From: Komagataeibacter nataicola
Lineage (GTDB): Bacteria; Pseudomonadota; Alphaproteobacteria; Acetobacterales; Acetobacteraceae
DNA length: 64,000 nt
Assembly (NCBI RefSeq): GCF_003207795.1
Contig: NZ_NIRT01000007.1
Coordinates: 1 to 64,000 of the forward strand
Direction: 5' to 3'
Position numbers and translations under genes: made by a program. Positions 9,046-53,108 of the stretch are shown here, in pieces. Within the stretch, counting starts at the first letter, position 1, and every line of letters begins with the position of its first letter. The notes beneath the pieces are model-generated. The model was not told where the DNA came from. It saw nothing but the letters and a program-made list of their open reading frames with translations, and searched no databases.

Positions 9046-9080
9046 GAAGCTTTTTGAAAAAAGCTTCACCAAAAAACCTT
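9046..9080. repeat. Composite intergenic repeat, copy A (half unit)
   Basis: GAAGCTTTTTGAAAAAAGCTTC hairpin followed by ACCAAAAACCTTT. This is the right half of a repeat found at nine intergenic loci here. It lies between the convergent ends of ispDF and the ATP12 gene and directly abuts a complete intrinsic terminator. Confidence 0.8.
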
Positions 9081-9095
9081 TATCAATAAAGTATT

Positions 9096-9857
9096 TTACA
9101 CGACCCGGCAAAGCTGGAGAAAGCGCGCTGCATCCTCCACTTCCACCGCCTGCAAGCGCAGGGCTTCGAGCAGTTTCGCATCCTCGCCCCAGATGTCCAT
9201 CTGGCTGCGCTCATCCACGCTGGCAATCTCCGCAGCCCTTGCCGCAGGCAGCGCGCCGGTTGCTACAGCCAGCCCCAGCACGATGCTTTTCATCGCGGGC
9301 ACCATCACCCCCAAGGCCGCCAGGGTGGCATTATCCATCTGCGTAAGCAGCGCCCGCCACGCGTCATGCACGCCAGGCGACTGCACGAGCGGCATGATGC
9401 CCGTCGTCACCGCCATGTCGATGTCATGCCGCGCGCGCAGCCACGCAAGCTGCGGGTTCCACAGCGCCTGCTGCTCGCGGCACAGGGGTGCGGGATAATC
9501 GGCGCGGTAACACAGCAGTTCGCCATCCACGTAGTGCAGCAGGGCCGTGACCTGTGCCGCCGGGTCGGGGGCCACGCGCTCGATCATGGTGCCCGCGATG
9601 CGCGTCATGGGCAGGTCATCGGGCGTGAAATGGCCGCCCTTTTCCCCGCCAGCCTTTGCCCATTCATCGGCAATGGCCTGTGCGAGCGCGCGCGACGCCA
9701 CGCACAGCGCCGTGCCGCCGGGCAGGCGGATGCCCCGCCCGTCAAGCTCCACCGTAAAGCCACCATCCGCTACCGGGCTTATTGCGGCCGTAACCCAGAA
9801 CCGCCTGCGCCTGCCTGCGGTCTGGGGCGTGGGGGGGCGCACGCCATCCTTCATCAT
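9096..9857 (-). CDS. ATP12 family F1-ATPase assembly chaperone
   Basis: 253 aa protein resembling ATP12, the chaperone that holds the F1 alpha subunit during ATP synthase assembly in mitochondria and Alphaproteobacteria. Supporting segments: RRFWVTAAISPVADGGFTVE near the N-terminus, LDGRGIRLPGG, and the acidic/aromatic core YVDGELLCYRADYP followed by LWNPQLAWLRARHDID, all typical of the family. It overlaps the upstream AsmA-like gene by 4 nt, so it is the distal gene of a rarA-rlu-asmA-atp12 transcription unit. Not linked to atp genes here, as is usual. Confidence 0.88.
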   Translation of the reverse strand: MMKDGVRPPTPQTAGRRRRFWVTAAISPVADGGFTVELDGRGIRLPGGTALCVASRALAQAIADEWAKAGGEKGGHFTPDDLPMTRIAGTMIERVAPDPAAQVTALLHYVDGELLCYRADYPAPLCREQQALWNPQLAWLRARHDIDMAVTTGIMPLVQSPGVHDAWRALLTQMDNATLAALGVMVPAMKSIVLGLAVATGALPAARAAEIASVDERSQMDIWGEDAKLLEALRLQAVEVEDAARFLQLCRVV

Positions 9858-12343
9858 TTCAGGATGCCCAGCCCCTTGAGCAGGCCGCCCACCTTCTTCA
9901 CATCAGGCGCGGCCTTGGAGTTGCCAATCAGGCCAGCCGCGCCATTGGCGCCACCTTCCGCCTTGGGGGCTGCGGTGGTGGGCTCGGGGCCGGTTGCACC
10001 TTCACGCGCGGCCTTGAGGGTAGCCGGGCACGGATCGGCCACGGCATTGCTACCCGAAGACCCGCCAAGCAGCAGGCCAATGGCGTAGCGCCCGTCAGAA
10101 CCCGCATCCATCTTGGGGCGCGGCGCGCTGAGCGTGCCACCCACGCGCAGCGGCACGGAGGCCCCGGTGCCGCTGATCATGAGCTGCGGCACCAGATGCA
10201 GGTCAAGCGCCTGCGAGACCATGCCCACCGTGCCCTTGCCGGTTACGGTCAGCGCATTGGTCTGCACGCCGATGGTATCGACATTGGCCGTGCCATCGGC
10301 CATGGCCATGTGCAGGCCGAAGCAGCGCAGCGCAATCGGGCCGGAACCCAGCGCGCCACGCGCGGCGTCACCAAGCAGTTGACCCAGCGCGCTGCCGCTG
10401 ACCGTGCCATTGACCATCGACACGCCCAGATGCCCGTTCATGCCGTTACGCAGTTCGGTGCGGGTGTTGCCCTGCGTCTTGACCGAACCCACAACCTGCA
10501 ACGCGCCCTGCACCATGTTGGACAGCCCGGCCTTGCTCTCCAGCCAGGCGGCAGGCAGCACCAGCGTGCCGATCGTGCCCGAAACCGTGGGGGTCTTGCC
10601 CGCCGTTGCATCCACCTCGAACTGCCCCGACAGGCGGCGGCCCGTGCCCTCGGCCTGCAGGGGGTCAACCTTCAGCACGCCGCTGCGCAGGTTGATGTGG
10701 GTCAGGGCGTTGCGGTACGTATCGCCCTCGAATTCCATCTGCGCCACCGTCAGGCGCAGGTCCATGTCCAGCTTGCGCAGCTCATCAAACGGCAGGGCGT
10801 CATCATTCGCTTTGGCCTGCGCGGGGGCGGCCGTTACCCCTTGTGCATCCGCCTTCGCAGGCGGGCCCATCAGGGCATCGGCGTTCAGCCAGCTGGCGTC
10901 GATCGTGCCACTGACCAGCGGCACCCCGCCCGCGCCACCATGCACGGACAGGTCAAGCCCGCCCTTGAGCGCAAGCTGCGTGCTCTTGACCACCAGATCG
11001 GAAAGCTGGAAATGCGCGCCGTTATCCTCGCTCACCAGATGGGTCGAGGCATCGAGATGGTCGAGCACCGCGCCATTGGGCAGCGGCAGTTGCCCCGCCG
11101 TGGCCGTAACATTGACCACCGCGCGCGAACCGCCCAGCGTGCCCGCCACCCGCAGCGAGCCCGGATCACCCGACAGGTCGAGCGACAGCGGCAGCGCCTC
11201 GGCGAGGTGCGACATCACCGCCGCGTCAAGCTGCTGGAGCGAACCGAGCGTGCCGGTCAGCTTCAGCCCCTTGCCCTGCCACTGGCCCTGGCTGTTGATG
11301 GTGACCGCATCCTTCAGCCCCGGCGCATCGATCGACAGGCCCTGCAGGGTCAGGCCCGACAGGTACTGCCCCGCATCGACCGCGCCCGTGTCGAGATGCA
11401 GCGAATTGAGCAGCGGCACGCTGCCTTCCTTGTCGGCGGCACTGCCGTCAACCACATTGGCCCTGAGCGTGAGGCGGCGCACGTCGGGCAGGCTCAGTCC
11501 GGGCACGAAGGCGTCGATCGCCCTGAGGCTGGCGATGTTGCCATCAACCGTGACGTTATAGCCCTTCATGTGGTCGGGATCGGCCACGGTGCCATCGAGC
11601 GCCAGCTGGCCCACCTGCTCGCCGCCGGCCTTGAAGGCCGCCTTGAGCGCCACCGGCCAGCCCGAGCGCGCGGTGGAGGTGAGGTTGATCGAACCCGTAT
11701 GCCCCGCCAGCGTAAAGCTGCCGGTATCGTTATGGCCCGCCACGTCAATCTCGGGCTTGCTGCCGTCCACGTCGGTCAGGTTGATGTGGTCGAGCACCAC
11801 CTTGCCCTTGCTGCCCGAAAGGCGGTCATCCCAGTCTACATCGGCATTGCTGATGCGTATGCTGCCGATCTGCACCTTCCAGTCCGACGCCGCCTGCTGG
11901 GTCGTGGCATCCGGCTTGGCCGTGGCCTGCGCGCCGGTGGGGGTGAGGCGCCAGTTGGCCATGCCCTGTTCGGTACGCTCAAGGTGGATCACCGGATGGT
12001 CAAGCTTCAGGCCATCAAGCTGGATCTCGTGGTGCAGCAGCGCCATCAGCCCCACGCTGGCCTGCAGGCTGTCTGCCGTGACCATGTCGGTATAGGCGCC
12101 ACCCGCCATGTCCGACAGGCCCACATCCTTCACCGAAAGCGAAAGGGTGGGGAAGACGCTGAACTCAAGCGCCCCCATGCGCACCTTCCGGCCGGTCTGT
12201 TTTTCAATCGCGGCGATGGCCTTGGCACGCACGGCATCGGGGTCGAGCATGGATTTGAGCACCAGCCCCCCGCCGCCCGCTATCACCACAAGGGCGACCG
12301 CGCCCCCGATCAGGATCCGTTTTGCATTTCCGTTCTGTGCCAT
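9854..12343 (-). CDS. AsmA family protein
   Basis: 829 aa protein with an N-terminal signal anchor (ILIGGAVALVVIAGGGGLVL), then the AsmA-type segment VRMGALEFSVFPTLSLSVKDVGLSDMAG and a long beta-rich body. Near the C-terminus is the family's repeat-like region (NTLTVTGKGTVG-type, here NALTVTGKGTVGMVSQALDL). AsmA-like proteins span or face the periplasm and are linked to outer-membrane lipid homeostasis. The ATG at 12343 was chosen because it directly precedes the anchor; longer in-frame readings to 12556 are charged, low-complexity and run back into the rlu gene. It begins 31 nt after the rlu stop and overlaps the ATP12 gene by 4 nt. Confidence 0.88.
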   Translation of the reverse strand: MAQNGNAKRILIGGAVALVVIAGGGGLVLKSMLDPDAVRAKAIAAIEKQTGRKVRMGALEFSVFPTLSLSVKDVGLSDMAGGAYTDMVTADSLQASVGLMALLHHEIQLDGLKLDHPVIHLERTEQGMANWRLTPTGAQATAKPDATTQQAASDWKVQIGSIRISNADVDWDDRLSGSKGKVVLDHINLTDVDGSKPEIDVAGHNDTGSFTLAGHTGSINLTSTARSGWPVALKAAFKAGGEQVGQLALDGTVADPDHMKGYNVTVDGNIASLRAIDAFVPGLSLPDVRRLTLRANVVDGSAADKEGSVPLLNSLHLDTGAVDAGQYLSGLTLQGLSIDAPGLKDAVTINSQGQWQGKGLKLTGTLGSLQQLDAAVMSHLAEALPLSLDLSGDPGSLRVAGTLGGSRAVVNVTATAGQLPLPNGAVLDHLDASTHLVSEDNGAHFQLSDLVVKSTQLALKGGLDLSVHGGAGGVPLVSGTIDASWLNADALMGPPAKADAQGVTAAPAQAKANDDALPFDELRKLDMDLRLTVAQMEFEGDTYRNALTHINLRSGVLKVDPLQAEGTGRRLSGQFEVDATAGKTPTVSGTIGTLVLPAAWLESKAGLSNMVQGALQVVGSVKTQGNTRTELRNGMNGHLGVSMVNGTVSGSALGQLLGDAARGALGSGPIALRCFGLHMAMADGTANVDTIGVQTNALTVTGKGTVGMVSQALDLHLVPQLMISGTGASVPLRVGGTLSAPRPKMDAGSDGRYAIGLLLGGSSGSNAVADPCPATLKAAREGATGPEPTTAAPKAEGGANGAAGLIGNSKAAPDVKKVGGLLKGLGILK

Positions 12344-12374
12344 TTTTCTTCCTGTCCTGTGGTGCCGGATGGCG

Positions 12375-13352
12375 CTATTTGCGCCGGGCCGGTGCGGCGG
12401 CCGGGGCAACGAACCCGATCTGCCTGAATGTCTCGCGCATGTGAGGCGAAAGTTCGGCCTCGACCACCAGCGTGCCGCCAGTGGGGTGCGGCAGCTCCAG
12501 CCTGCGGGCATGCAGGTGCAGCTTATCGGTGAAGCCGGTGACATGCGCCTTGTCACCCCCGTATTTCGGGTCGCCCAGTATGGGGTTGCCCAGCGCCTCG
12601 CAATGCACGCGCAGCTGGTGGGTGCGGCCTGTCAGGGGCGAGAGAGCCAGCCACGACATCTTGCGGGCCGCCGCATCAAGCACCTCGTATTCCGACAGGG
12701 CATGCACCGCATCCGCATCGCCCCGCTCGGCCACCACGCTGATGGCGCCAGCACCCGCGCCCAGCTTGGTCAAAGGCTGGTCAATGATGCCGGTGGCGGG
12801 CGACGGACGCCCCACCACCACGGCCCAGTAAACCTTGCGCACGTCACGCCCGCGGAAGGCGGCAGCCAGCTTGGCGGCAACACCCGGCGTGCGGGCCACG
12901 AGCAGCAGGCCCGACGTATCGCGGTCAATGCGGTGGACAAGGCGGGGGCGCGGATCATCGGGGTTTTCACGCAGGCCATCGAGCAGCGCGTCGATATGAT
13001 GGGTGATGCCGGGGCCGCCCTGCACAGCAATGCCAGCGGGCTTGTTGAGCACGATCAGATGGTCATCGCGGTAGAGCACCATCCGGTTGATCTCGCGCAC
13101 CTGCCGCTCATCAAGCGGCTTGACCGCAAGCGGCGGCGGGCGGCTGGCGTTGGGGATGGGCGGCACGCGCACGGCCTGCCCCGGCGCAAGGCGGGTGGCG
13201 GCAGTGGCGCGCCTGCCATCCACGCGCACCTGCCCCGTGCGGCACAGCTTTTGCAGCGCCCCCTGCGTCAGGTGCGGGTAATGCCTGCGGAACCAGCGGT
13301 CGAGGCGGATATCGGCTTCGTCATCGCTGACGGTAAGGGTAACGACACTCAT
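12375..13352 (-). CDS. RluC/RluD-type 23S rRNA pseudouridine synthase
   Basis: 325 aa RNA pseudouridine synthase. An S4 RNA-binding domain occupies residues 12-70 (IRLDRWFRRHYPHLTQGALQ), and the catalytic aspartate D143 lies in HRIDRDTSGLLLVART. LTGRTHQLRVHC is the second conserved block and GDPKYGG the third. The start ATG overlaps the rarA stop by 4 nt (13349-13352, ATGA), which decides this start over an upstream one at 13382. RluC versus RluD specificity cannot be told from these motifs; the C-terminus ends in an alanine/arginine tail. Confidence 0.92.
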   Translation of the reverse strand: MSVVTLTVSDDEADIRLDRWFRRHYPHLTQGALQKLCRTGQVRVDGRRATAATRLAPGQAVRVPPIPNASRPPPLAVKPLDERQVREINRMVLYRDDHLIVLNKPAGIAVQGGPGITHHIDALLDGLRENPDDPRPRLVHRIDRDTSGLLLVARTPGVAAKLAAAFRGRDVRKVYWAVVVGRPSPATGIIDQPLTKLGAGAGAISVVAERGDADAVHALSEYEVLDAAARKMSWLALSPLTGRTHQLRVHCEALGNPILGDPKYGGDKAHVTGFTDKLHLHARRLELPHPTGGTLVVEAELSPHMRETFRQIGFVAPAAAPARRK

Positions 13353-14737
13353 GACCCACGGCTTTCGCGCACTCTGTTCCAACTGTCCAGCCGTCGCGCG
13401 ACTTCGCGTTCATATCCCCGGTCGGTCGGCTGGTACAGTTTTGGCCTGCGCATGCCATCGGGGAAGTAGTTCTGCCCCGATATGCCGCCCTCCGCATCAT
13501 GGTCGTATTCATACCCCCTGCCGTAGCCGATATCCTTCATCAGCGCGGTCGGCGCGTTGAGGATATGCGCAGGCGGCATGAGGCTGCCGGTGGCGCGTGC
13601 GGCCCGGCGGGCCATGTTGTAGCCCTTGTACACCGCGTTTGACTTGGGCGCCGTGGCCAGGTGCACCACAAGCTGCGCCAGTGCGAGCTCACCCTCGGGC
13701 GAGCCGAGACGCTCGAAGGTCTCCCATGCCGCAACCGCCAGCGGCAGGGCGTGGGGGTCGGCCATGCCCACGTCCTCGGCAGCGAAGCGGGTTAACCTGC
13801 GGGCAATGTAGCGCGGGTCCTCGCCGCCCTCGAGCATGCGGGCGAACCAGTAGAGCGCCGCATCAGGGTCGGAGCCGCGCAGGGATTTATGCAGTGCCGA
13901 GATGAGGTTGTAATGTTCCTCGCGGTCCTTGTCATACAGCGCCGCGCGGCGGGCGAGCAGGCGTGACAGGGCAGCGGGGTCAAGCGGTTCGCGCTGCGGC
14001 GGCAGGGCAAGGAGCTGCTCGACCATGTTGAGCAGGTAGCGCCCGTCGCCATCGGCCATGGCGCGCAGCGTGGCGCGGGCCTCGGGCGTGAGTGGCAGGG
14101 GCGTGTGGGTGGTGGCCTCGGCGCGGTCGAGCAGCTGCTCCATCGCCGCATCATCCAGCCGGTGCAGCACCAGCACCTGACAGCGCGAGAGCAGGGCGCT
14201 GTTGAGCGCAAAGGACGGGTTCTCGGTCGTGGCGCCGACCAGCACCACGGTGCCATCCTCCACCACCGGCAGGAAGCCATCCTGCTGGGCGCGGTTGAAA
14301 CGGTGGATTTCATCAACAAACAGAAGCGTGCCGCCGCCCGAGGCCGCCGTGCGCCGGGCCTCCTCAAACGCGCGCTTGAGGTCGGCCACGCCGGAGAATA
14401 CGGCCGAAAGCTGCACGAAGCGCAGGCCCGCGGCGGCGGCAAGCAGGCGGGCGATGGTGGTCTTGCCCACCCCCGGCCCGCCCCACAAAATCAGGCTGGC
14501 GAGCGAGCCACGCGCGAGCATCTGCCGCAGGCTGCCATCGGGGCCGAGCAGATGGTCCTGCCCCACCACCTCATCAAGCGTGGTGGGGCGCAGGCGGTCG
14601 GCCAGGGGCTGGTTGCGGGCGGGCTGGGCGGAAGGGGCCTGCGGAAACGCGACAGGCCCACGCGCGGGGGGCTGGGGGGCCGTGTTGCCAAACAGGTCCG
14701 CCGGGCCATCATCCATGCTGTCTCGCCTGCCTGCCAT
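13349..14737 (-). CDS. rarA: Replication-associated recombination protein A (RarA/MgsA)
   Basis: 462 aa AAA+ clamp-loader-like ATPase acting at stalled replication forks. Motifs: LADRLRPTTLDEVVGQDHLL at the N-terminus, Walker A GGPGVGKTT (86-93), Walker B LLFVDEIHRFNRAQQD, sensor GATTENPSFALNSALLSRC, and a C-terminal tetramerisation region (GSDPDAALYWFARMLEGGEDP). The start at 14737 follows GGAG by 3 nt; an internal ATG at 14716 is the alternative. It is first in a unit with the pseudouridine synthase, AsmA-like and ATP12 genes. The N-terminal 40 residues are proline/alanine-rich with the PCNA/clamp-peptide-like DLFG near residue 14. Confidence 0.93.
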   Translation of the reverse strand: MAGRRDSMDDGPADLFGNTAPQPPARGPVAFPQAPSAQPARNQPLADRLRPTTLDEVVGQDHLLGPDGSLRQMLARGSLASLILWGGPGVGKTTIARLLAAAAGLRFVQLSAVFSGVADLKRAFEEARRTAASGGGTLLFVDEIHRFNRAQQDGFLPVVEDGTVVLVGATTENPSFALNSALLSRCQVLVLHRLDDAAMEQLLDRAEATTHTPLPLTPEARATLRAMADGDGRYLLNMVEQLLALPPQREPLDPAALSRLLARRAALYDKDREEHYNLISALHKSLRGSDPDAALYWFARMLEGGEDPRYIARRLTRFAAEDVGMADPHALPLAVAAWETFERLGSPEGELALAQLVVHLATAPKSNAVYKGYNMARRAARATGSLMPPAHILNAPTALMKDIGYGRGYEYDHDAEGGISGQNYFPDGMRRPKLYQPTDRGYEREVARRLDSWNRVRESRGS

Positions 14738-15053
14738 GTGCTCCTGCCTGTAGGTGGTGCAATCGTGCCCCATTATGGGCTGTATCTGCATAGATTGGAA
14801 AGCATCATGACCAATACCAGTCCCGGTTGCATGAGACTGGCGATGGTATCTTGAAAAACGGGATCTTTTGAAGCTTTTTGAAAAAAGCTTAACCAAAAAC
14901 TTTCATCCGGTTTTTGGCAGGTTTACAGGCTGGCTTTTAAAATTTCATGGATTGAGCAGCGGGCAGCGTGAATACTGAAATACATCCACAGAATAAAAGT
15001 TTTTGCATGCCATCTTTTTTTCAAAAAAGTGGCATTATGGAGTGCACAGGCTT
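14738..15053. other. Intergenic region between the MBOAT gene and rarA
   Basis: 316 nt with no gene I can support. It holds two pieces of the composite intergenic repeat (14868-14905 and 14995-15035) downstream of the MBOAT gene. The rarA promoter presumably lies in the remaining 130 nt before 14737. Confidence 0.6.
14868..15035. repeat. Composite intergenic repeat, copy B (two separated halves)
   Basis: 14870-14903 is the AAGCTTTTTGAAAAAAGCTT hairpin plus AACCAAAAACTTTC. 14995-15035 is AAAAGTTTTTG followed by a hairpin with ATGCCA/TGGCAT ends and a CTTTTTTTCAAAAAAG core. The outer arms AAAAGTTTTTG and CAAAAACTTT are thus present but in rearranged order, about 90 nt apart. Confidence 0.7.
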
Positions 15054-16430
15054 TCAGAACTGGAAATAGATGAAGGCCTCCGGCGGCCTGCCACCCACCA
15101 GAAACACCAGCAGCACGAAGGCGATCCCCGCCGCCACCGCCAGCCAGGGCGTGGGCCGCACGCGCTCCAGCACCACCTGCTGCGACGCCGGGCCGATCAC
15201 CGCAAACATGAGTGCAAGAGCCAGCACCACGGGGTGCGCCACCGCCATGCTCCCGCCGCCATGCGCCCCCACCATTCCCGCCAGCATGCGCCCTGCGGTG
15301 GGCAGGTCGGCGGCGCAGAACACCACCCATGTCAGCAGCACGAACAGCAGGCTCAGCGCGCAGCCCATGCCGCGCGGCAAAATACGCCCGGTGCGGTCCC
15401 ACGCATGGGCTGTGGCGAGGGCTGCGCCATGCAGCAGGCCCCAGACCACGAAATTCAGCCCCGCCCCGTGCCACAGCCCGGCCAGCCCCATGGTGGCCAT
15501 CACGTTCACGGCCTGCCGCGCGGGCGCACAGCGGTTGCCCCCCAGCGGGATGTAGACGTAATCACGCAGGAAGCGCGACAGCGTCATGTGCCACCGCCGC
15601 CAGAAGTCACGCACTGATACGGCGCGGTAGGGCGCATTGAAATTGAACGGCAGGCGGATGCCCATCATCAGCGCCATGCCGATCGCCATGTCCGAATAGC
15701 CGGAAAAATCGAAATAGATCTGGAGCATGAAGCTCACGGCCGTCAGCCATGCCGCCCCCAGCGCCGGGGCATGGCCCATATGGGCGGCATCGAACACCGG
15801 CGCGCACATGCTGCCCAGCGTATCGGCCAGCCCGACCTTCTTGCCCAGCCCCACCAGCAACAGCAGGCCGCCCCGGCCAAGGTTCTCCCACATGGCGGGG
15901 CCGCGCGGGCTGGCGTCAAACTGCGGGATCAGTTCATTATGCCGCACGATGGGACCGGCCACGAGTTGCGGAAAGAAGGTCACGAACTCCACAAAATCCG
16001 CCAGCCGGTACACCCGCGCCTGCCCGCGCCCGAGGTCAACAAGGTAGGATATTTTCTGGAACACGAAAAACGACAGCCCCAGCGGCAGGATCACTGGCCA
16101 CGGCGTAGGCACCCGCCCCATGGCGGCCAGCACGCAGCCTGCCAGCCAGCCTGCATATTTGAAGCTAAACAGCACCCCAAGATTGCCCGCAATGCCCAGC
16201 CACAGCCAGCCCCGCCACTGCGTGCGCCCCCATAATACGGCAACGCCCTGGCTGAAGCCGGTCATGCCCAGCAGCAGGGGCACGAACCGCCAGTCCCACA
16301 ACCCATAAAAGAGCAGGGAAGCGGCGATGAGCACGGCTTGGCGCGCGGCCCTGCTGGCGGCTACGGCATAATACAGCCCCAGCACCAGCGGCAGGAAGAT
16401 GAGCAGGAAAGGCTGGGCTGCAAACAGCAT
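15054..16430 (-). CDS. MBOAT family O-acyltransferase (AlgI-like)
   Basis: 458 aa polytopic membrane protein with about ten hydrophobic segments. The AlgI-type N-terminus (FLPLVLGLYYAVAA, ASLLFYGLWDWRFVPLLLG) is followed by the family blocks FDFSGYSDMAIGMALMMGIRLP and FWRRWHMTLSRFLRDYVYIPLGGNR. The catalytic-region histidine is in GLAGLWHGAGLNFVVWG. Such proteins move acyl groups across the membrane onto polysaccharides or other acceptors. No AlgJ/AlgX-type periplasmic partner or polysaccharide genes are adjacent, so the acceptor is unknown. It starts one base before the end of the upstream flavoprotein gene and is the last gene of that unit. Confidence 0.9.
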   Translation of the reverse strand: MLFAAQPFLLIFLPLVLGLYYAVAASRAARQAVLIAASLLFYGLWDWRFVPLLLGMTGFSQGVAVLWGRTQWRGWLWLGIAGNLGVLFSFKYAGWLAGCVLAAMGRVPTPWPVILPLGLSFFVFQKISYLVDLGRGQARVYRLADFVEFVTFFPQLVAGPIVRHNELIPQFDASPRGPAMWENLGRGGLLLLVGLGKKVGLADTLGSMCAPVFDAAHMGHAPALGAAWLTAVSFMLQIYFDFSGYSDMAIGMALMMGIRLPFNFNAPYRAVSVRDFWRRWHMTLSRFLRDYVYIPLGGNRCAPARQAVNVMATMGLAGLWHGAGLNFVVWGLLHGAALATAHAWDRTGRILPRGMGCALSLLFVLLTWVVFCAADLPTAGRMLAGMVGAHGGGSMAVAHPVVLALALMFAVIGPASQQVVLERVRPTPWLAVAAGIAFVLLVFLVGGRPPEAFIYFQF

Positions 16431-24083: not shown

Positions 24084-24102
24084 AGCACCGCAAAATTACA
24101 AC

Positions 24103-24181
24103 AGTTTCTGGTGAAGCTTTTTTCAAAAAATCTTTGAAATAACACCGTCTTTTTAAAAAAGGCGGCACCCAAAAACTTTCC
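24103..24181. repeat. Composite intergenic repeat, copy C
   Basis: Left arm GTTTCTGGTGAAGC with a TTTTTTCAAAAAAT hairpin, then a CCGTCTTTTTAAAAAAGGCGG hairpin-like segment and right arm CACCCAAAAACTTTC. It lies between the convergent 104-aa gene and coaA. Confidence 0.75.
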
Positions 24182-24199
24182 TCTTTTAAAAACAGATCC

Positions 24200-26793: not shown

Positions 26794-26812
26794 GGCGTAT
26801 ATAAAACCAAAC

Positions 26813-26872
26813 AAGCGTTTCCGGACGGTGCTCTCCGAGACTTTCTGAAAAAAGCTTTACCGGAAACGTCTT
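26813..26872. repeat. Composite intergenic repeat, copy D (diverged, arms still paired)
   Basis: Outer arms AAGCGTTTCCGG and CCGGAAACGTCTT differ from the common AAAGTTTTTGG/CCAAAAACTTT arms at several positions, but the changes are matched so pairing is kept. Inside is CTTTCTGAAAAAAG. It lies between convergent ttuD and the lipoprotein gene. Confidence 0.65.
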
Positions 26873-26881
26873 CACATGCGG

Positions 26882-30257: not shown

Positions 30258-31046
30258 GTGACCTTTCTTTCGCCCCGCCACAACCGAACACGCCTGCTGC
30301 CCACCCTGCTCGCCACGGGGGCGATGCTGGCTGCCACGGCGGGCGCGGGCAGGGCCGCGGATGCACAGGCCAGCTTTACCCCCGCCCAGCGGCAGGAAAT
30401 TGTCGAGATCATGCGCAATGCGCTCAAAACCGACCCCACCATCCTGTCAGACGCCATCGCCGCCCTGCGCAGCAATGCCAACGCCGCCCAGCAGAACGCG
30501 GCCCGCTCCGCGCTGGAAAGCCACCGCGGCGAACTGACCGCGCCAACAGCGACCGATGGCGTGCTGGGCAATGCAAAAGGGCAGACCACCGTTGTCGAAT
30601 TCTATGATCCGCGCTGCCCCTACTGCCGCAAGGTGCTGCCCGACCTCGACCGCCTGACGCGCGAGAACAGGGACCTGCGCATTATTGAAAAGGTCATTCC
30701 CGTGCTCGGCCAGCCCAGCCTGATCGCATCACAGGCGCTCGTGGCGGCCTTCGTGCAGGGCGGGCAGGAAGGTTACTTCCGCATGCAGGGCGTGGTGATG
30801 AATGATTCCGTGCAGCCCACGGTCGAGCGCATGCGCACGCTGGCCACCCAGGCGGGGCTGAATGCCACCCAACTGGTCAGTGACATGAATGGCGCGAAGG
30901 TCACGTCCATCCTGCAGGCCAACATGGAACTCGCGCGCGCGATCGGGCTTGATGGCACGCCCACCTTCGTGTTCAACGCCCGCCAGATCATTCCCGGCGC
31001 CGTCAGCTACGATGACCTGAAAAAGGCCATCGCACAGAACCATTAA
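30258..31046 (+). CDS. Periplasmic DsbA-family thiol oxidoreductase (Com1/BdbD-like)
   Basis: 262 aa. GTG start 7 nt after GGAG. The signal peptide (LLPTLLATGAMLAATAGAGRA) has a likely cleavage after GRA or AADA. An N-terminal helical region (about 35-95) precedes a thioredoxin fold with active site FYDPRCPYCRKVLPDL (CPYC) and the cis-proline loop GLDGTPTFVFNARQIIPG. It is expected to form or isomerise disulfides in periplasmic proteins. It stands alone, followed by repeat copy E and the convergent hemA. Confidence 0.9.
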   Translation: MTFLSPRHNRTRLLPTLLATGAMLAATAGAGRAADAQASFTPAQRQEIVEIMRNALKTDPTILSDAIAALRSNANAAQQNAARSALESHRGELTAPTATDGVLGNAKGQTTVVEFYDPRCPYCRKVLPDLDRLTRENRDLRIIEKVIPVLGQPSLIASQALVAAFVQGGQEGYFRMQGVVMNDSVQPTVERMRTLATQAGLNATQLVSDMNGAKVTSILQANMELARAIGLDGTPTFVFNARQIIPGAVSYDDLKKAIAQNH

Positions 31047-31083
31047 AAGATTGTTTGAAAACAAATCACTGATAAAAAACAAG

Positions 31084-31165
31084 AAAAGTTTTTGGGTGCC
31101 GCCTTTTCTCAACCAGGGCGGCGTTCTTCTGTAGCTTTCCGGAAAAAGCTATCCCAAAAACTTTT
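31084..31165. repeat. Composite intergenic repeat, copy E (most complete)
   Basis: Perfect 13-bp outer arms AAAAGTTTTTGGG (31084-31096) and CCCAAAAACTTTT (31153-31165) enclose two hairpins: GCCGCC/GGCGGC, then TAGCTTT-CCGG-AAAAAGCTA. As nucleic acid this can fold into a three-way junction. It lies between convergent dsbA-like and hemA. Confidence 0.85.
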
Positions 31166-31240
31166 CTTTATTTTCAGTATATTGAAGCAGATCCCTTTCC
31201 CGCCTCCCGTGATGACAGGAGGGCGGGAAAGGCCATGGCC

Positions 31241-37562: not shown

Positions 37563-37583
37563 TGAATAATACTTTGAAATGAT

Positions 37584-37657
37584 AAAGTTTTTGGCGAAGC
37601 TTTTTCAAAACGCTCTGAAAGGCGTCACCTTTTTAAAGCAAGGTGACACTCAAAAGC
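37584..37657. repeat. Composite intergenic repeat, copy F
   Basis: Left arm AAAGTTTTTGGCGAAGC with a short AGCTTTTTCAAAACGCT hairpin, then GTCACCTTTTTAAAGCAAGGTGAC (six-pair stem GTCACC/GGTGAC). It lies 22 nt beyond the complete pgk terminator, between convergent genes. Confidence 0.75.
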
Positions 37658-37679
37658 ACTTCTCCTGCCGTTTTCGCGC

Positions 37680-43468: not shown

Positions 43469-44467
43469 ATGGCTCTTGGCTTCTTCTCACGTCTCAAGGC
43501 GGGGCTTTCGCGCTCCACGCAGAAACTCAGCGGCGGGCTGACCGCCGTCTTTACCCGGCGCAAGCTTGATGACCAGGCGCTCGAGGACCTGGAAGACCTG
43601 CTGATCTCCGCTGATCTTGGCCCCAGCGTTGCGGGCAAGGTGATTGAATCCTTCCGTCGCTCCAAATTCGGCAAGGAAGTGACCGATGAGGAGGTGCGTC
43701 AGGCCCTGGCAGAGGAAATCGCCAACATCCTCCAGCCCGTCGCCATTCCGTTCGAGCCTGACCCGAAGCACAGGCCGCATGTGGTGCTGGTGGTGGGCGT
43801 AAACGGCACCGGCAAGACCACCACCATTGGCAAGATGGCCCGCTATTATGGCGAGCAGGGCAAGAAGGTGATGATGGTGGCGGGTGATACCTTCCGCGCC
43901 GCCGCCGTCGAGCAGCTTCAGGTCTGGGGCGAGCGCACCGGCGTGCCGGTCATTGCGGGCAAGCCCAATGCCGATGCGGCAGGCCTTGCGTTCGAGGCGC
44001 TGAAGCGCGCCACGGCGGAAGGGGCCGACCTGCTTCTGGTCGACACCGCAGGCCGCCTGCACAACAAGAGCGCACTGATGGAGGAGCTGGCCAAGATCAT
44101 CCGCGTCATGCGCAAGTTTGATGAAACCGCTCCCCATTCGGTGCTGCTGGTGCTCGATGCCACCACCGGACAGAACGCGGTGGAGCAGGTGCGGGTGTTC
44201 AAGGAACTGGTCAACGTGACCGGCCTTGTGGTGACCAAGCTCGATGGCTCGGCGCGTGGCGGCATTGTGGTGGCGCTGGCCGATGCGTTCGGCCTGCCGG
44301 TGCATCTGGTGGGTGTGGGCGAGCAGGCCGAGGATCTGCGCCCCTTCTCCGCCGAGGCCTTTGCCAGGGGGCTGGTGGGTGATTCCATCAAGGTGGTTGA
44401 ACGTGACGATGCCCCCGCCACTGAAACGGATGAGACACCCGAAGCAGGCCCGCCTCCGGCGCAGTAA
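43469..44467 (+). CDS. ftsY: Signal recognition particle receptor FtsY
   Basis: 332 aa SRP GTPase that docks ribosome-nascent chains at the membrane. The N-domain begins FFSRLKAGLSRSTQKLSGGL; the acidic A domain is short, as is common in Alphaproteobacteria. G motifs: GVNGTGKTTTIGKMA (G1), DTFRAAAVEQL, DTAGRLHNK (G3), TKLDGSARGG (G4) and GVGEQAEDLRPF. Last gene of the gloA-dapF-mtaB-ftsY run. Confidence 0.96.
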   Translation: MALGFFSRLKAGLSRSTQKLSGGLTAVFTRRKLDDQALEDLEDLLISADLGPSVAGKVIESFRRSKFGKEVTDEEVRQALAEEIANILQPVAIPFEPDPKHRPHVVLVVGVNGTGKTTTIGKMARYYGEQGKKVMMVAGDTFRAAAVEQLQVWGERTGVPVIAGKPNADAAGLAFEALKRATAEGADLLLVDTAGRLHNKSALMEELAKIIRVMRKFDETAPHSVLLVLDATTGQNAVEQVRVFKELVNVTGLVVTKLDGSARGGIVVALADAFGLPVHLVGVGEQAEDLRPFSAEAFARGLVGDSIKVVERDDAPATETDETPEAGPPPAQ

Positions 44468-44965
44468 GAAATTTTTTGAAAACAAATCTTTGGTAAAAAA
44501 ATAAGAAAAGTTTTGAGGTGTCGCCTTTTTTAAAGGCGACACCTTCCGAAGCATTTTGAAAAAATCTTCACCAAAAACATCTTCATGGTTGAAGTTTATT
44601 TTCAATAATGCGCACTACACTTCAATAAAAACCATTATCTATTTTCAATACCATGCGCTGACATGAGTGATATATTTTTGGTTTATGCCATTTCCCCAAA
44701 AATACTTCTGTTGGCTCATGGCCTGTTTTGCAGAACAGGCTTCTCCTGATGGCGGGTTCAGGCGTGTTTGATGGGCAGAAATTTATTAAAAATTGGGTTA
44801 CATGAACTTTTATTAATAATTTTATTTTAAATAGCAGTAATTTTACATCAATTCACACTTGATTTATTAAATATGTGCGAAATATTACAAATTAATTAGA
44901 TTTTATAGTTTGAAGTCAATTGTGAAAATAATGCAATTGTCGGGAAATTCTGGAACGGATTCCTC
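44468..44965. other. Long AT-rich intergenic region between ftsY and the OprB-type porin
   Basis: 498 nt without a supportable gene. The first part holds repeat copy G. From about 44770 to 44950 the sequence is strikingly A/T-rich against a GC-rich background, with many short runs of A and T. It presumably contains the porin promoter, but I cannot pick out a confident -35/-10 pair. Confidence 0.7.
44506..44580. repeat. Composite intergenic repeat, copy G
   Basis: AAAAGTTTTG leads into a 10-bp hairpin AGGTGTCGCC (44516-44525) / GGCGACACCT (44535-44544). A GAAGCATTTTGAAAAAATCTTC hairpin and right arm ACCAAAAACAT follow. It lies 39 nt after the ftsY stop. Confidence 0.8.
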
Positions 44966-46402: not shown

Positions 46403-46468
46403 AGCCGTGTGGGACAGACGGTGCAACGGGCACAGCCTGATGATCCATTAACCATCCGCAACATTTTT

Positions 46469-47655: not shown

Positions 47656-47827
47656 CCTAAGTGCCGCCTTGCTTGCCTAGCACCGGGCGTTCGGGAGTGG
47701 ACTGGCGCGATGCCGATGGCCTGATTGGGGTGGCCTGATCGTCCGCTTCCGTCTCGAGCAGACGTAGATCGGTTCGCGTTGTACGACCGGGTCTGGTCGG
47801 TAGCAGCCATGAACATGAGCGCAAAAA

Positions 47828-48103
47828 ATGGCTGCTTTCGTTTATCGCTTCCCGATAGCCGACCTTCCGCACTCCCATGTCTACCTGACACAAAACGAGT
47901 TCGACGCCCTCGTCTCGTTCGTCTCGTTCGTCTACAATCCAGGAAAAGGTTGGCCAGGTGTCCGTGCCGCTATCAACAGCGGCGACAAACGCAAGGCCGT
48001 CAGGATCATCGAGGAGCAGGTGCGCTCGAAAGGCAAGATCATGAACGGTCTGGTCAAGAGACGGCACAACGAGGCCATGCTTCTGCAGGAAGGACGATAT
48101 TGA
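47828..48103 (+). pseudogene. Truncated phage-type lysozyme (GH24) C-terminal part
   Basis: 91 aa matching only the C-terminal half of GH24 lysozymes/endolysins: VYLTQNEFDALVSFV, AAINSGDKRKAV, and SKGKIMNGLVKRRHNEAMLL (the G-x-GL-x-RR-x-x-E signature). The N-terminal half with the catalytic Glu is absent, and an in-frame stop lies just upstream (47816). A 9-nt tandem duplication adds a second VSF within the motif. It overlaps the next gene by 1 nt (TGATG). Probably inactive; it could derive from a phage endolysin or from an interbacterial lysozyme effector. Confidence 0.55.
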
Positions 48104-48540
48104 TGATCCGCGCTATTATCCTAAGCCTGATTTGCGCCGTCTGTATCGGCGGCACCGCACACGCGGGCACCAAGCCGGAGTCTTTGGAGGAACAGTCTTA
48201 CAACGGCAATACGATGTTCAACGAGGAGCTCGATGGAAAAGCGTTTCTCAATGGGCGGTTAATCGTGCGCGTCGAGCGTGTTTCGACCTGTGTGTCGGCA
48301 GTCTGGACCCGCAGCGGCGATGTCGGATCGCCGCTGCGGCGCGACTTGCTGGAATGGAACAAAATGTTCGATGGCGATCCTCGGATCGAGGCTCAGTCTT
48401 ACTATTTGACGTTCGTCTATGCCGACCATCGGAGCAACGATGTTGTGTCCATGCCTCTTACGGCGCATCCGGACCGTTTTGAAGATACGGCTGCTGTCAC
48501 CCTCCTATCGTGCCAACCGAAACAGCATCATCGCAAGTGA
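48103..48540 (+). CDS. Hypothetical secreted protein, coupled to the lysozyme fragment
   Basis: 145 aa. A clear signal peptide (AIILSLICAVCIGGTAHA) is followed by a mature domain with two cysteines (VERVSTCVSAVWTRS, VTLLSCQPK). No family recognised. Its start overlaps the lysozyme fragment's stop, and it would be exported to the periplasm. The arrangement resembles lysozyme effector-immunity pairs, but this is inference from position only. Confidence 0.5.
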   Translation: MIRAIILSLICAVCIGGTAHAGTKPESLEEQSYNGNTMFNEELDGKAFLNGRLIVRVERVSTCVSAVWTRSGDVGSPLRRDLLEWNKMFDGDPRIEAQSYYLTFVYADHRSNDVVSMPLTAHPDRFEDTAAVTLLSCQPKQHHRK

Positions 48541-48601
48541 CGATCTCTGCGCCGGGCGATCCCGCCGGAAACATAACGCTCGGCGGGTCTGCCAGAGCAG
48601 A

Positions 48602-48631
48602 ACCCATTCAGATGGGATCATCTGAATGGGT
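48602..48631. repeat. 12-bp perfect inverted repeat
   Basis: ACCCATTCAGAT-GGGATC-ATCTGAATGGGT, at the edge of the patchy region and 61 nt after the secreted-protein gene. There is no T-run on either side, so it is not an obvious terminator; a mobile-element end is possible. Confidence 0.6.
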
Positions 48632-48753
48632 GAAGATGCTTGCAAAAACCAATGAAACAGAGCCTCTCTGCTGAACCGGAGTTCAGTGGAAATTCTCCAG
48701 ACGCCGTTTATCTCCCAAAGCCGACCTTCCGCATCACCCCCAAAACCCGCCCA

Positions 48754-49938
48754 TCACCCCCCATGCGGATAAAACACCACCTTGATGCAGTTATCCTTCT
48801 TGTCACGAAATTTCTCATAAAGGGCAGGCCCATCCTCAAGATCAGCCGAGCGATGGCTTATGACGAAGGAAGGGTCGATCTCCCCTTTCTCAATACGCTC
48901 AAGCAGGGGCTGGAGGTATTTCTGGGCGTTGGTTTGCCCCGTGCGCAGGGTCAGGCCCTTGTTCATCAGCACCCCGATCATGACCGGCCCGAGCGCGCCT
49001 GCGTAAACGCCGGGCATCGACACGATGCCACCGGGCCTGCAACCCAGAATGGCCTGGTTGAGCGCAAAGGGCCGCTCGAGCGTGGTGGCTGACAGCAGGG
49101 CCGAGCCGACCTTCTGCATCATGGTATCCGCACCATGCGCTTCCATGCCCACCGCCTCGATCACCGCATCCGGTCCCAGCCCGTGTGTCATTTCAACAAG
49201 GGTATGCTGGATGTTCTCGGTGCCAAAATCAATTGTCTCGGCACCCGCCGCCTGCGCCATGGCCAGCCGCTCGGGCACCTGATCTATGGCGATGACCCGC
49301 CTGGCTCCGAGCAGGAAGCATGAGCGGATCGCCATCTGCCCCACCGGACCGCAGCCCCATATGGCAATGGTCTTTTCGGCTTCTGGCGTAATGTCGCAGT
49401 ATTCAGCGGCCTGATAGCCGGTGGGAAAGATATCGGACAGGAAAAGAACCTGGTCGTCACTCAGCCCCTCCGGCACGATGATCGGCCCGATATCAGCATG
49501 CGGCACCCGCAGATATTCCGCCTGCCCGCCGGAAAAACCACCCGTGATGTGCGAATAGCCAAACAGCCCCGCCAGCGGGTAGCCGAATGTCTCGGCCTGC
49601 TGGCGGCCATTGGGGTTGGTGCGCTCGCAGCAGCTCCAGTTGCCCCATTTGCATTGCCGGCACGCCCCGCATGAGATGGTAAAGGGCACCACGACCCGGT
49701 CCCCCACCGTAAGGCGGGTGTTTTCCCGGCCCACCTCCACCACTTCGCCCATGGTTTCATGGCCGAGGATGTCGCCACACTGCATGGTTGGCATCATGCC
49801 ATCCATCAGGTGCAGGTCGGAACCACAGATGGCGCAGGCGGTTACCCTGATGATGGCGTCATGCCCATCCATAATGACAGGATCAGGCACGCTTTCGCAT
49901 GTGATCTTGCCTTTCTTCTGCCAGGTCAGTGCTTTCAT
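48754..49938 (-). CDS. Zinc-dependent alcohol dehydrogenase (formaldehyde dehydrogenase-like)
   Basis: 394 aa MDR-family enzyme. Catalytic-zinc region CAICGSDLH and [16 protein letters not shown]; the structural-zinc cysteines are in [17 protein letters not shown]. The NAD-binding motif is [15 protein letters not shown]. The sequence layout ([36 protein letters not shown]) is that of the glutathione-independent formaldehyde dehydrogenase-like subgroup. Substrate is uncertain. The gene is downstream of the ABC importer genes on the same strand but separated by 180 nt and repeat copy H. Confidence 0.9.
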
Positions 49939-50027
49939 GGGAAAACGTCCTGCTTGAGGGGGATAGCAGGCAGACGCATGGTGGGCGGTATGGTTTTCTG
50001 GCCCAGCATATTCTTGCTGAAAAACAG

Positions 50028-50104
50028 CAGTTTTTGGATAGCGCCTTTTTTAAAGGCGGCATTGCTTAAAGCTTTTTGTAAAAAAACTTCACCAAAAACT
50101 TTTA
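50028..50104. repeat. Composite intergenic repeat, copy H
   Basis: CAGTTTTTGG arm, GCGCCTTTTTTAAAGGCGGC hairpin, AAGCTTTTTGTAAAAAAACTT hairpin, then CACCAAAAACTTTT. It lies just beyond the 3' end of the ABC ATPase gene. Confidence 0.8.
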
Positions 50105-50120
50105 TTCTTTGAGCAACCCC

Positions 50121-50843
50121 TCAGCGTGGCGCGTAAAGCCGCTCCAGCATGGGGGGGTCAAGCACCGCGGCGGCAGGACCATCGGCCATGATCCGCCCCT
50201 GCCGCAGCGCAATGGCGCGGTCAAACACGCGGGCGGCGGCAAGCGGGTCGTGCGTGGTGGCCACAATGGCATGGCCCTGCGTGGCAAGTTTTTGCAGCAG
50301 GGCGTAAAGCCGCTGCTTCTGCCCGTAATCCAGCCCGGTTTCCGGCTCATCAAGAATGAGCGTGCGCGCCCCCTGCGCCAGGGCACGGGCCAGCAGGGCC
50401 GCCTGCCGCTCGCCGCCTGAAAGTTCGGTATAGGGCCGGTCCGCCAGATGGGTAATGCCCAACGCGTGCAGGGCATGCGTCACCTCATCGCGGTCATGGC
50501 GGGGCAGGCCCAGCGCAAAGGGCGTTTCCACAAGGCGACCCATGCCCACGATGTCACGCACGCTGTAGGGAAAAAGCGGCACATGCCCCTGCGGCACATA
50601 GGCAATGCGCCGCGCCACTTCGCGCCGCGACCAGCCCTGCATGGGCCTGCCCTCCAGCAGCACCTGCCCTGCCTCCGGCCGCGTCAGCCCCAGCAGCAGG
50701 CGCAAAAGCGTGGTCTTGCCTGCGCCATTGGGGCCAAGCAGCGCGGTCATCTCCCCTGCCCTGACGCCAAATGAAAGGTCATGCAGCACGGTGCGCCCGG
50801 CATGGCTGAAACTGACCCCGGCCATGTGCAGTACAGTCATCAT
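50121..50843 (-). CDS. ABC transporter ATP-binding protein (FecE/BtuD type)
   Basis: 240 aa ATPase of a type II importer. Walker A LLGPNGAGKTTLLRLLLG, signature ELSGGERQAALLARALAQGA, Walker B TLILDEPETGLDYGQ and switch His in ATTHDPLAAA. The ATG at 50843 overlaps the permease stop by 4 nt. Third gene of a binding-protein-permease-ATPase operon. Confidence 0.93.
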   Translation of the reverse strand: MMTVLHMAGVSFSHAGRTVLHDLSFGVRAGEMTALLGPNGAGKTTLLRLLLGLTRPEAGQVLLEGRPMQGWSRREVARRIAYVPQGHVPLFPYSVRDIVGMGRLVETPFALGLPRHDRDEVTHALHALGITHLADRPYTELSGGERQAALLARALAQGARTLILDEPETGLDYGQKQRLYALLQKLATQGHAIVATTHDPLAAARVFDRAIALRQGRIMADGPAAAVLDPPMLERLYAPR

Positions 50844-51862
50844 GCCCGCCACCCCCGCCGCAGCAGCGGCAGCACGGCCACGAACAGCGCCACCCCGAGC
50901 AGGTCGGCAATCAGGCCTACGGGAATTTCCTCCACCGAGAGCGTGCGCGCCAGATCATCGCACACCAGCAGGAACATGCCGCCAAGGCAGGCGCTGGCAG
51001 GCAGCACCCGCATGTTGCATGGCCCCACCAGCAGCCGTGCCACATGCGGCACCACCAGCCCCACCCAGCCAATCATGCCCGCAACCGAAACCGTAAGTGC
51101 TGCCAGCACCGTGGCCGCGCCAATCACGCCGTAGCGCAGCGCCATGACGGGAATGCCCAGCGTGCGGGCCTCCTCATCGCCCATGGCCAGGCCATCGAGC
51201 ATGCGCCCGCAGGCGCTGAGCAGCACGATGCCAACCACCACCGGCCCAGCCATCACGCCCAGCGCGTGCGGCGTAACCTGCGTCAGGCTGCCCAGCAGCC
51301 AGAACACGATGTCAGGCAACTGGTTCTGCGGGTCGGCAATGTATTTGAGCAGCGACAGCAGCGCCGTAAACAGCGCCGAACTGATCAGCCCGCCAAAGAC
51401 CAGCATCAGCATGGAAGTCGCATCAAACAGATGCGCCACCCCCACGCCACAGGCAACCGCCAGCAGCCCGCCCGCAAAGGACAGCCCCGCAACACCCACA
51501 GGCCCCAGCCCCCACACAATGCCCAGCGCCGCCCCCGTGCCAGCGCCTGCCAGCACGCCCAGAAGCCCGGGCGAGACCAGAGGATTGCGAAACACTGCCT
51601 GATACGCCGCCCCTGCCACTGAAAGTGCCGCCCCAACACAGATCGCCCCCCCAATGCGCGGCAGGCGCGCGCCAAACACGACGCTATGCACCATATGCGT
51701 TTGTGGCGTATTGGCCCCAGCCATCAGGCCCATGCTGGCGGCAAGTGCGTGCAGAACCTGCCCGGGCTGCACAGCAAAGCGCCCGATGCAGGCCGAGAAA
51801 ACCGCAAGCCCCACCAGCCCCATGGCTGCAAGTGCCGCAACAGCCAGCCCGCGCAGCCTCAA
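50840..51862 (-). CDS. ABC transporter permease, FecCD family
   Basis: 340 aa with about ten membrane segments. FecCD marks include GLPRIGGAICVGAALSVAGA-like (LPRIGGAICVGAALSVAGAA), YQAVFRNPLVSPGLLGVLAG and GMIGWVGLVVPHVARLLVGP. It forms the channel for siderophores, cobalamin, heme or, in the MolBC branch, oxyanions. It overlaps the binding-protein gene by 4 nt at its start. Confidence 0.93.
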   Translation of the reverse strand: MRLRGLAVAALAAMGLVGLAVFSACIGRFAVQPGQVLHALAASMGLMAGANTPQTHMVHSVVFGARLPRIGGAICVGAALSVAGAAYQAVFRNPLVSPGLLGVLAGAGTGAALGIVWGLGPVGVAGLSFAGGLLAVACGVGVAHLFDATSMLMLVFGGLISSALFTALLSLLKYIADPQNQLPDIVFWLLGSLTQVTPHALGVMAGPVVVGIVLLSACGRMLDGLAMGDEEARTLGIPVMALRYGVIGAATVLAALTVSVAGMIGWVGLVVPHVARLLVGPCNMRVLPASACLGGMFLLVCDDLARTLSVEEIPVGLIADLLGVALFVAVLPLLRRGWRA

Positions 51863-52911
51863 GGAGCGTGATCCGGCACGGGCTGCGGCGGCTGGCCTGC
51901 AAGGATGCGCTGCGCGTCGTCCTCGCTCAGACTGTAGTGGAAATAGGTGCTGTAGAAATCGCGCGTCAGCGCCACGGGGTCGATATCGTCAAACAGGTCG
52001 GGGTGGAGCGTCTTCGCCGCCCAACTGATCTGGAGCGGCAGTTCGCTGCCATACCGATCCCACGGGAACACGCCCGATGGGTTGGCATGCACGCGCCCGT
52101 TGCGCACGGCGTCGAGCCGCTGCCACAGGCCGCCATCGGCACCAGCATCAATGGTGCCGCAATCGGGGCCGAGAATGATGACATCGGGGTTCCACGCCGC
52201 CACCTGCTCGGGGGTGACCGGCTTCATGTTGCCACTGACCCCGATTGCGGCATTACGGCCCCCGGCCAGGGTGATCCATTCATCCACGATGCTGTCCGCC
52301 CCATCCACCCGCAGCGGATGCAGTGACTGGATGTGCAGCACGCGCGGACGCGCGCTTTCGGGCACGCTGGCAAGGCGCTCGCGCACGTCATGGACCGTCT
52401 GCTTCATCATGGTGCGGTAATGGGCTGCGGTAGCGTGCGCATGTTCGGTGCCAAGGGCCGCGGCGGTCATGTCCACCACGCGTAGCAGGCCATCGACATC
52501 CTGAAACGACGAGACCAGCACAGGAATGCCCACCGCGCCAAAGGCCGTGATGGCCGCCGAGGCCTGCGGCACGAACACAAGGTCCACCTGGTCACGCAGC
52601 AGGGATTCCGCATTGACCTGTGGCCCATTGACCACCTGCGCCTGCGCGAGTGCAGGAAACACCCGGTACATCCACGGCCGGGCCTGCGGGCTGTCCACTG
52701 TCATGACGATCTGCTGCACGCCGCCGAGCATCAGCAGCAGTTCGTTATGGGCGAACCACAGATCGGCAATGCGGGCGGGATGATCGGGCACGGTCTGCGC
52801 ATGGCCCGCCATGTCTGTTATCTCGCCCGCCGTGGCGGGATGGGCGACCAGGCTCGCTGCCATGGCGCATGCCAGCGCCCCCGTGGCTACAGTGCATCTG
52901 CCCCAGTTCAC
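51859..52911 (-). CDS. ABC transporter periplasmic substrate-binding protein (BtuF/FecB type)
   Basis: 350 aa, GTG start. The signal peptide (CTVATGALACAMAASLVAHPATA) is followed by the PF01497-type domain: ITDMAGHAQTVPDHPARIAD, VDLVFVPQA, and WNPDVIILGPDCG between the two lobes. Substrate is not evident: iron chelate, cobalamin or an oxyanion are all possible. First gene of the importer operon. A TATAAT-like -10 inside a small dyad lies 22-29 nt upstream. Confidence 0.88.
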   Translation of the reverse strand: MNWGRCTVATGALACAMAASLVAHPATAGEITDMAGHAQTVPDHPARIADLWFAHNELLLMLGGVQQIVMTVDSPQARPWMYRVFPALAQAQVVNGPQVNAESLLRDQVDLVFVPQASAAITAFGAVGIPVLVSSFQDVDGLLRVVDMTAAALGTEHAHATAAHYRTMMKQTVHDVRERLASVPESARPRVLHIQSLHPLRVDGADSIVDEWITLAGGRNAAIGVSGNMKPVTPEQVAAWNPDVIILGPDCGTIDAGADGGLWQRLDAVRNGRVHANPSGVFPWDRYGSELPLQISWAAKTLHPDLFDDIDPVALTRDFYSTYFHYSLSEDDAQRILAGQPPQPVPDHAP

Positions 52912-52932
52912 AATCCTGTCCCCTGAGCGGTT

Positions 52933-52952
52933 ATTATATCCTTTCAGATATA
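52933..52952 (-). promoter_or_regulatory. Candidate promoter -10 overlapped by a TATATC/GATATA dyad
   Basis: TATATC-CTTTCA-GATATA inverted repeat (52935-52952). Read on the minus strand, a TATAAT box overlaps its promoter-distal arm, 21 nt before the GTG start. A repressor or activator could act here; no regulator is identified. Confidence 0.4.
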
Positions 52953-53033
52953 TAGACTAACCGGCCCGGTGCAATCAGCCCCGCAGAGATTGCCTGAAAA
53001 GGCAGGCCAGAAAACATTCTTGAAAACATAAAG

Positions 53034-53108
53034 AAGTTTTTGGTGAAGCTTTTTTCAAAAAGCTAAAAAAATGCCGCCTTTTAAAAAAAGGCGGCACCCA
53101 AAACCTTT
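53034..53108. repeat. Composite intergenic repeat, copy I
   Basis: AAGTTTTTGGTG arm, AAGCTTTTTTCAAAAAGCT hairpin, then TGCCGCCTTTTAAAAAAAGG with CGGCA completing a GCCGCC/GGCGGC stem, and CACCCAAAACCTTTG arm. The two hairpins are in the reverse order compared with copies E and G. It lies 23 nt after the gcvP stop. Confidence 0.85.

Follow-up and report, generated by a model that had tools for sequence, protein, structure and literature searches.

The window analysed here, a stretch of 64,000 nucleotides (nt) at positions 1 to 64,000 of contig NZ_NIRT01000007.1 of Komagataeibacter nataicola (assembly GCF_003207795.1), carries short composite inverted repeats close to the ends of genes. A first-pass annotation had placed them at nine loci, had regarded them as one family and had explained them by selection on folding and/or by spread as a small non-autonomous element. 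These nine loci are very probably, for the most part, trimmed copies of a non-autonomous miniature inverted-repeat transposable element (MITE) of IS5 type, which would help to account for their placement at gene ends. A covariance model of the repeat (R1) recovers copies at all nine loci (Table 1), and the described plan holds, with outer arms that enclose one GC-based and one AAGCTT hairpin. Folding and alignment give the element core, approximately 84 bp long, the majority consensus ATAAAAGTTTTTGGGTGCCGCCTTTTTTCAAAAAGGCGGCGTTTTTTGAAGCTTTTTGAAAAAAGCTTCACCAAAAACTTTTAT. The hairpins of single copies fold on their own, and the loop letter of the first hairpin, read in 66 copies, is C in 24, G in 3 and uninformative in 39. 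Some details of the description had to be revised. Both orientations do occur, but what had been read as a reversed hairpin order is merely the opposite strand of a single element. The unit is longer than had been seen, since the copies at 31084 and 44506 carry 35-36 extra bases including a terminal repeat; the locus at 14868 resolves into two partial copies, and the supposed two-hairpin copy at 26813 has lost most of its GC hairpin.

Table 1. Copies of the repeat in the window, with the position used in the first-pass annotation and the score under model R1.
Feature	First-pass position	Positions	Strand	Score and context
Element core	9046	8998..9083	+	74.2 bits; convergent gap; stops 19 and 12 nt away; GC hairpin followed by T6
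Partial copy, AAGCTT half	14868	14840..14906	+	30.0 bits, E 4.4e-4
Partial copy, GC-type half	14995 (stem ATGCCA/TGGCAT)	14993..15057	+	32.1 bits, E 1.2e-4
Element core	24103	24098..24182	-	70.8 bits; convergent gap
Internally deleted copy	26813	26811..26873	+	34.2 bits; convergent gap
Left end of complete element		31047..31081	+	Terminal repeat AAGATTGTTTGAAAAC abutting TAA stop 31044-31046
Element core	31084	31082..31167	+	76.4 bits; convergent gap
Element core	37584	37581..37663	-	58.6 bits; convergent gap
Left end of complete element		44468..44503	+	Terminal repeat GAAATTTTTTGAAAAC abutting TAA stop 44465-44467
Element core	44506	44504..44584	+	68.2 bits; co-directional gap
Element core	50028	50024..50105	+	66.3 bits; 15 nt from stop of minus-strand gene 50121-50843
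Element core	53034	53030..53111	-	78.3 bits; 19 nt from stop of minus-strand gene 53131-55908

Model R1 was built from 38 aligned copies (alignment A1); these seed copies are similar to one query, and the E-values of the model are rough. As it was used to score 150 candidates in the genome of K. nataicola and 113 per relative genome, the resulting counts of 147 and 113 are lower bounds. De-duplication leaves 88 copies in 864 kb of the K. nataicola genome, which extrapolates to approximately 374 copies over 3.67 Mb if an even spread is assumed. The copy number is far above chance, and the few copies that would have spoken against a dispersed family are not what the search of this genome and its relatives returned. 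In a scan of the window at the Rfam gathering score no family covers the repeats. The sole match at that score is a glycine riboswitch (RF00504, 57855-57942 on the minus strand, 59.9 bits).

Complete copies are bounded by a terminal inverted repeat with the motif GAG[AG][CT]TGTTTGAAAA. With up to four mismatches allowed, this motif is present at a distance of 24-48 bp from the core on 27 of 176 core sides, compared to 0 of 176 shuffled flanks. Among the loci examined, 22 full-length copies possess both ends (at most three substitutions) and measure 150-162 bp; they correspond to 21 independent insertions, as those of L102 and L111 are one and the same. The 3-bp flanks are identical in 12 of the 22; the left one fits TNA in 19 copies and the right one in 16. 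Nine full-length copies have a called stop codon within 1 nt, and in seven of them the position is exact. At element-free gaps of this genome stops constitute 10.6% of TNA sites, and if this share applies to the other genomes, the probability of at least 7 of 22 copies lying at stops is 0.006. In six copies, including the two in the window, the terminal repeat follows the stop at a distance of exactly 0. An exact empty site is available at C18:114360, where this genome reads TGA, a 162-bp element, TGA and ACGCCAGAAT, while its congener G018 reads TGA ACGCCAGAAT; the duplicated TGA is the gene's stop codon. A short unit with terminal inverted repeats, a target duplication of fixed length and an occupied/empty site pair are the marks by which a MITE is recognized, and the anatomy of the repeat is that of a MITE with a TNA target that includes stop codons, where insertion rebuilds the stop.

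The placement relative to genes was quantified with genes called, in this genome and in the others, by our own codon-score script trained on this genome rather than by a published caller. Within the 864 kb, an element occupies 43 of 98 convergent, 35 of 556 co-directional and 4 of 96 divergent gaps (convergent versus divergent, p = 2e-11), and one of the 88 copies overlaps the end of a called gene, while another sits at a block edge. For copies of at least 40 bits the median distance is 15 nt to a flanking stop (n = 93) and 129 nt to a flanking start (n = 35). Co-directional gaps that bear an element are long even after its removal, with a median of 176 nt compared to 48 nt in gaps without it, as expected if copies within operons are lost. 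An excess at 3' ends, reported in the first-pass annotation from the window, is hence confirmed by the measured positions relative to stop codons; its addition that most copies lie between convergent genes holds for five of the nine loci, the other four being co-directional.

Occupancy differs between genomes. Among 32 gaps with an above-threshold element in this genome or in G018, 20 are occupied in both genomes, 8 in G018 alone and 4 in this genome alone, and some of the gaps below threshold in one genome contain decayed remnants. The site of the 24103 copy is a short gap without the element in the congeners L101 and L102, and that of the 26811 copy is, depending on the congener, empty, simple or filled with a nested full-length copy. 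The nested insertion is a full-length element (L102:4313-4474, L111:3079-3238) within apparent remnants of an older copy. All 19 Komagataeibacter genomes searched contain the repeat, with 34 to at least 113 copies each, compared to one of five genomes from other genera of the same family (G022; 15 weak matches, best E 3.2e-9) and none of 16 from other families. At least 114 stretches contain an exact 35-base core pattern, and the 80 listed belong to Komagataeibacter, Novacetimonas, Acetobacter musti and Gluconacetobacter entanii. Many exact core matches come from A. musti LMG 30640 (L276, L278, L285 and others), the single Acetobacter species among the matches listed, and several of its copies retain a right terminal repeat of the type CTGAAACAGTCTC. 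This distribution of matches suggests horizontal spread.

Among 30 loci from five other genomes, two insertion sequences (ISs) of 883 bp (L402) and 884 bp (L416) are a candidate source of the transposase; both carry the ends GAGCCTGTTTGGAAA. The L402 element is flanked by TTA on both sides and the L416 element by TTA and TGA, and their 274-aa proteins match the NCBIfam IS5 family transposase (E 1.5e-69 and 5e-70) as well as Pfam DUF4096 and DDE_Tnp_1. Of 21 bases at the end of the L416 element, 18 agree with one end of the MITE; the two differ in that the IS encodes the transposase and the MITE is short with two inner hairpins. We infer that the IS5-family transposase of the L402/L416 elements could move the repeat. 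In the genome of K. nataicola, the loci of 28 DUF4096 and 30 DDE_Tnp_1 matches contain no intact element with the ends of the MITE, other transposase families not having been searched. Three elements come nearest to it. A 930-bp element of this genome (L189:647-1576, ends GAGCCTGATCCGAAA, flanks TCA and TTA), which we take to be IS1031-like, resembles the MITE in its GAG-type ends and TNA flanks, differs from it at 4-5 of 15 end bases and contains IS5-type transposase domains. An 813-bp element of this genome has the ends GGGACTGTTGGGAAT. Pieces of IS5-type transposase, one with several internal stops, remain in the decayed element G000:C48:338-1009 (L196, L227), whose end GCGCCTGTTTGAAAA, behind TTA, is close to the MITE's own ends. 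A plasmid search with one 48-base MITE end listed no IS carrying that end.

The orientation of the repeat is not fixed at a given site. At 6 of 25 orthologous sites the copies of some congeneric pair are in opposite orientation, and at four of these (C18:175423, C35:120115, C96:101277 and C96:121320) the flanks can be aligned and the inner sequence aligns better when inverted, with 43-50 of 56-58 matches inverted versus 34-42 uninverted when each opposite pair is scored. In the clearest case, C35:120115, both genomes have the element three bases behind the stop. The remaining two sites, with a copy that has a terminal repeat, may be fresh insertions. Five sites had been flagged as inverted relative to G018, of which three were set aside, C18:112929 and C35:60050 for their several copies and C35:69672 because a terminal repeat is present in just one of the genomes. 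The inversions probably arise by recombination, or by template switching, through the 12-17-bp arms. In a Novacetimonas maltaceti record (L325), near position 1318, an end of the right type stands on the GC-hairpin side, an arrangement which suggests that the core was inverted inside a longer element.

The data are well accommodated by a mechanism in which an IS5-family transposase, acting in trans, would insert the element at TNA. Because the TAA and TGA stops fit this target, which is duplicated, insertion into a stop codon would restore it. Selection would remove copies from genes, operons and promoters, so that the family would remain at 3' ends, where copies would drift nearly neutrally, lose their ends or one hairpin, and occasionally be inverted between the 12-17-bp arms. 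Some copies may terminate transcription through chance structure, and a maintained function would be unnecessary to explain the data.

The other half of the earlier proposal, selection on folding, would make the repeat a host-maintained bidirectional terminator or mRNA 3'-end structure that has been copied to gene ends and is kept for its fold. The occupied 43 of 98 convergent gaps, the short median distance of 15 nt to stops and the hairpins that fold in single copies are what such a role would predict. Moreover, 15 of 74 element-bearing gene ends pass a canonical terminator test (GC-rich hairpin and T tract on the gene's strand) inside the element, so that transcription termination by some copies is possible. 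In the alignment of 38 copies, 17 cells are changed on both stem sides compared to 10.2 in shuffles (8 of 500 as high) and the covariation score is 0.106 versus 0.096 (21 of 500), modest excesses which favour folding, while the pairs with a both-sided change (7 versus 5.7; 156 of 500) and the further pair types (35 versus 34.1; 209 of 500) are close to the shuffled values; what these counts can tell is limited by the shared ancestry of paralogous copies. Orthologues were compared 87 times at 25 sites, the same sites being reused across several genome pairs and C96:26793 being set aside. Here 74 pair cells are changed on both sides where the mean rate predicts 36.5, a twofold excess that can arise when positions differ in their rates. 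Standard pairs in both copies are found in only 28 of the 74 double changes, approximately the share that our arithmetic gives for random changes, and in 148 of 469 one-sided changes. The compensatory stem changes of the first-pass annotation thus exist as both-sided changes, but the evidence that they compensate is mixed and weak, with no clear excess in orthologues, and covariation comes close to none beyond chance.

Divergence from G018 argues against a maintained fold as well. In 15 pairs of orthologous cores 14.0% of 1071 positions differ, as many as the fourfold degenerate sites of flanking genes (14.1% of 56,531), whose second codon positions differ by 1.4%; a looser set of 28 pairs, which includes poorly aligned and multi-copy sites, gives 17.5%. 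By part, the stems differ by 9.7-14.8% and the loops and linkers by 19.5%, a difference on the side of folding, and weak constraint on the stems is possible. Truncation hits either hairpin equally, as among 277 sequences the GC hairpin remains alone in eight and the AAGCTT hairpin in seven. This coverage count overruled a first impression that the GC hairpin is preferentially retained, and it replaced two hairpin classifiers which were unreliable because of cross-matching between the hairpins or of overly strict rules. Another canonical terminator is present at 7 of 74 element-bearing and 50 of 304 other ends (p = 0.15) over matched searchable length, so that any shortage of other terminators at element-bearing ends is not significant; an apparent depletion (6 of 74 versus 57 of 304, p = 0.035) had been obtained without length matching. 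In the 37584 gap of the window, an ordinary terminator-like hairpin is present closer to the left gene. Finally, at 12 of the 32 compared gaps one genome is below the score threshold, either empty or decayed. Neutral-like divergence, pairing changes near chance and indifferent loss of either hairpin make a host-maintained fold unlikely, and selection on folding is not borne out. The spread of a non-autonomous element, by contrast, is upheld by terminal repeats, TNA duplications, the empty site, occupancy differences, the patchy range of genera and IS5-family elements with similar ends.

Several observations weigh against the IS5-type MITE as a full account. An occupancy of 44% of convergent gaps is high for neutral insertion, 10 of the 22 full-length elements have no identical flanking triplets, a clean empty site was observed just once, exact landing on a stop codon explains a minority of copies, and among the IS5-type loci scanned no intact IS has exactly the ends of the MITE. 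In addition, 10 of 13 copies that score at least 90 bits have no terminal repeat (up to four mismatches) at either end, compared to 23 of the 36 that score 60-90 bits. Cores closest to the consensus are thus, if anything, poorer in ends, and simple erosion fits this badly, since decay would alter the core too. The flanks of these repeat-free copies share nothing clear past a few A/T bases. Candidate causes are a core that moves separately or is gene-converted, rapid deletion of the ends which is favoured in tight convergent gaps, or differences between subfamilies, each of which could produce such copies. A minor possibility that we take seriously is the first of these in its general form, in which the 84-bp core spreads as a unit distinct from the 160-bp MITE, by mobility or gene conversion, with neither terminal repeats nor target duplication. 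Such a unit would explain the 10 of 13 end-less copies, and ectopic conversion via palindromic arms would likewise be expected to produce opposite orientations as at the four alignable sites. Against it, inspection by eye and of column information revealed no boundary motif or flanking duplication beyond the core, and sites without a core-only copy, judged by eye, mostly read as deletions with arm remnants. It is quite improbable that both ideas combine, so that an 84-bp core, first delivered by a MITE for which stop codons are safe landing sites, would now be an autonomous-looking, orientation-indifferent gene-end module, refreshed toward the consensus by conversion or template switching among its copies, turning over in place by way of its palindromic arms and providing the bidirectional transcription end for nearly half of the convergent gene pairs. 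Palindromes of the REP/BIME type moved by a RAYT (Y1) transposase are also small, extragenic and of high copy number, but the complete copies here have terminal inverted repeats and TNA duplications; to our knowledge neither is expected of RAYT-moved REPs, and on these features, no search for Y1 transposases having been made, this origin is hardly credible.

Understood as an IS5-type MITE, the element explains a family of short repeats that is abundant in cellulose-producing acetic acid bacteria, and it offers a simple route by which a transposable element may be tolerated, as stop codons fall within a TNA target and are rebuilt when the element lands in them. It also holds a warning for the analysis of such families, because covariation among paralogous palindromes need not imply selection on RNA folding when orthologues, as here, drift like fourfold degenerate sites. 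The titles and beginnings of abstracts that were searched contain no earlier description of the family, and a term search of comparative papers on Komagataeibacter genomes, in the text accessible to it, gave no mention of MITEs or miniature elements.

Among known systems, the Correia elements of Neisseria target TA, whereas the element described here targets TNA. By description, the two are alike in length class, terminal repeats, target duplication, the occurrence of deleted forms, the core and inversion; they differ in their hosts and in that Correia elements lie mostly upstream of genes and the present element at gene 3' ends. Correia elements (CREE, NEMIS) are non-coding units of approximately 105 and 155 bp that have terminal inverted repeats and a foldable core, duplicate their target and occur both complete and with internal deletions (PMC2649163). 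From their upstream positions they are described as supplying promoters. The inversion of single Correia elements has been reported (cited in PMC10969869) and provides a precedent for the inversion of single elements observed here. Streptococcus pneumoniae harbours the small intergenic mobile repeats RUP, BOX and SPRITE, of which SPRITEs resemble rho-independent terminators (PMC10969869). They belong to other hosts, and it is by description, not by sequence, that they can be likened to the MITE at the gene ends of Komagataeibacter.

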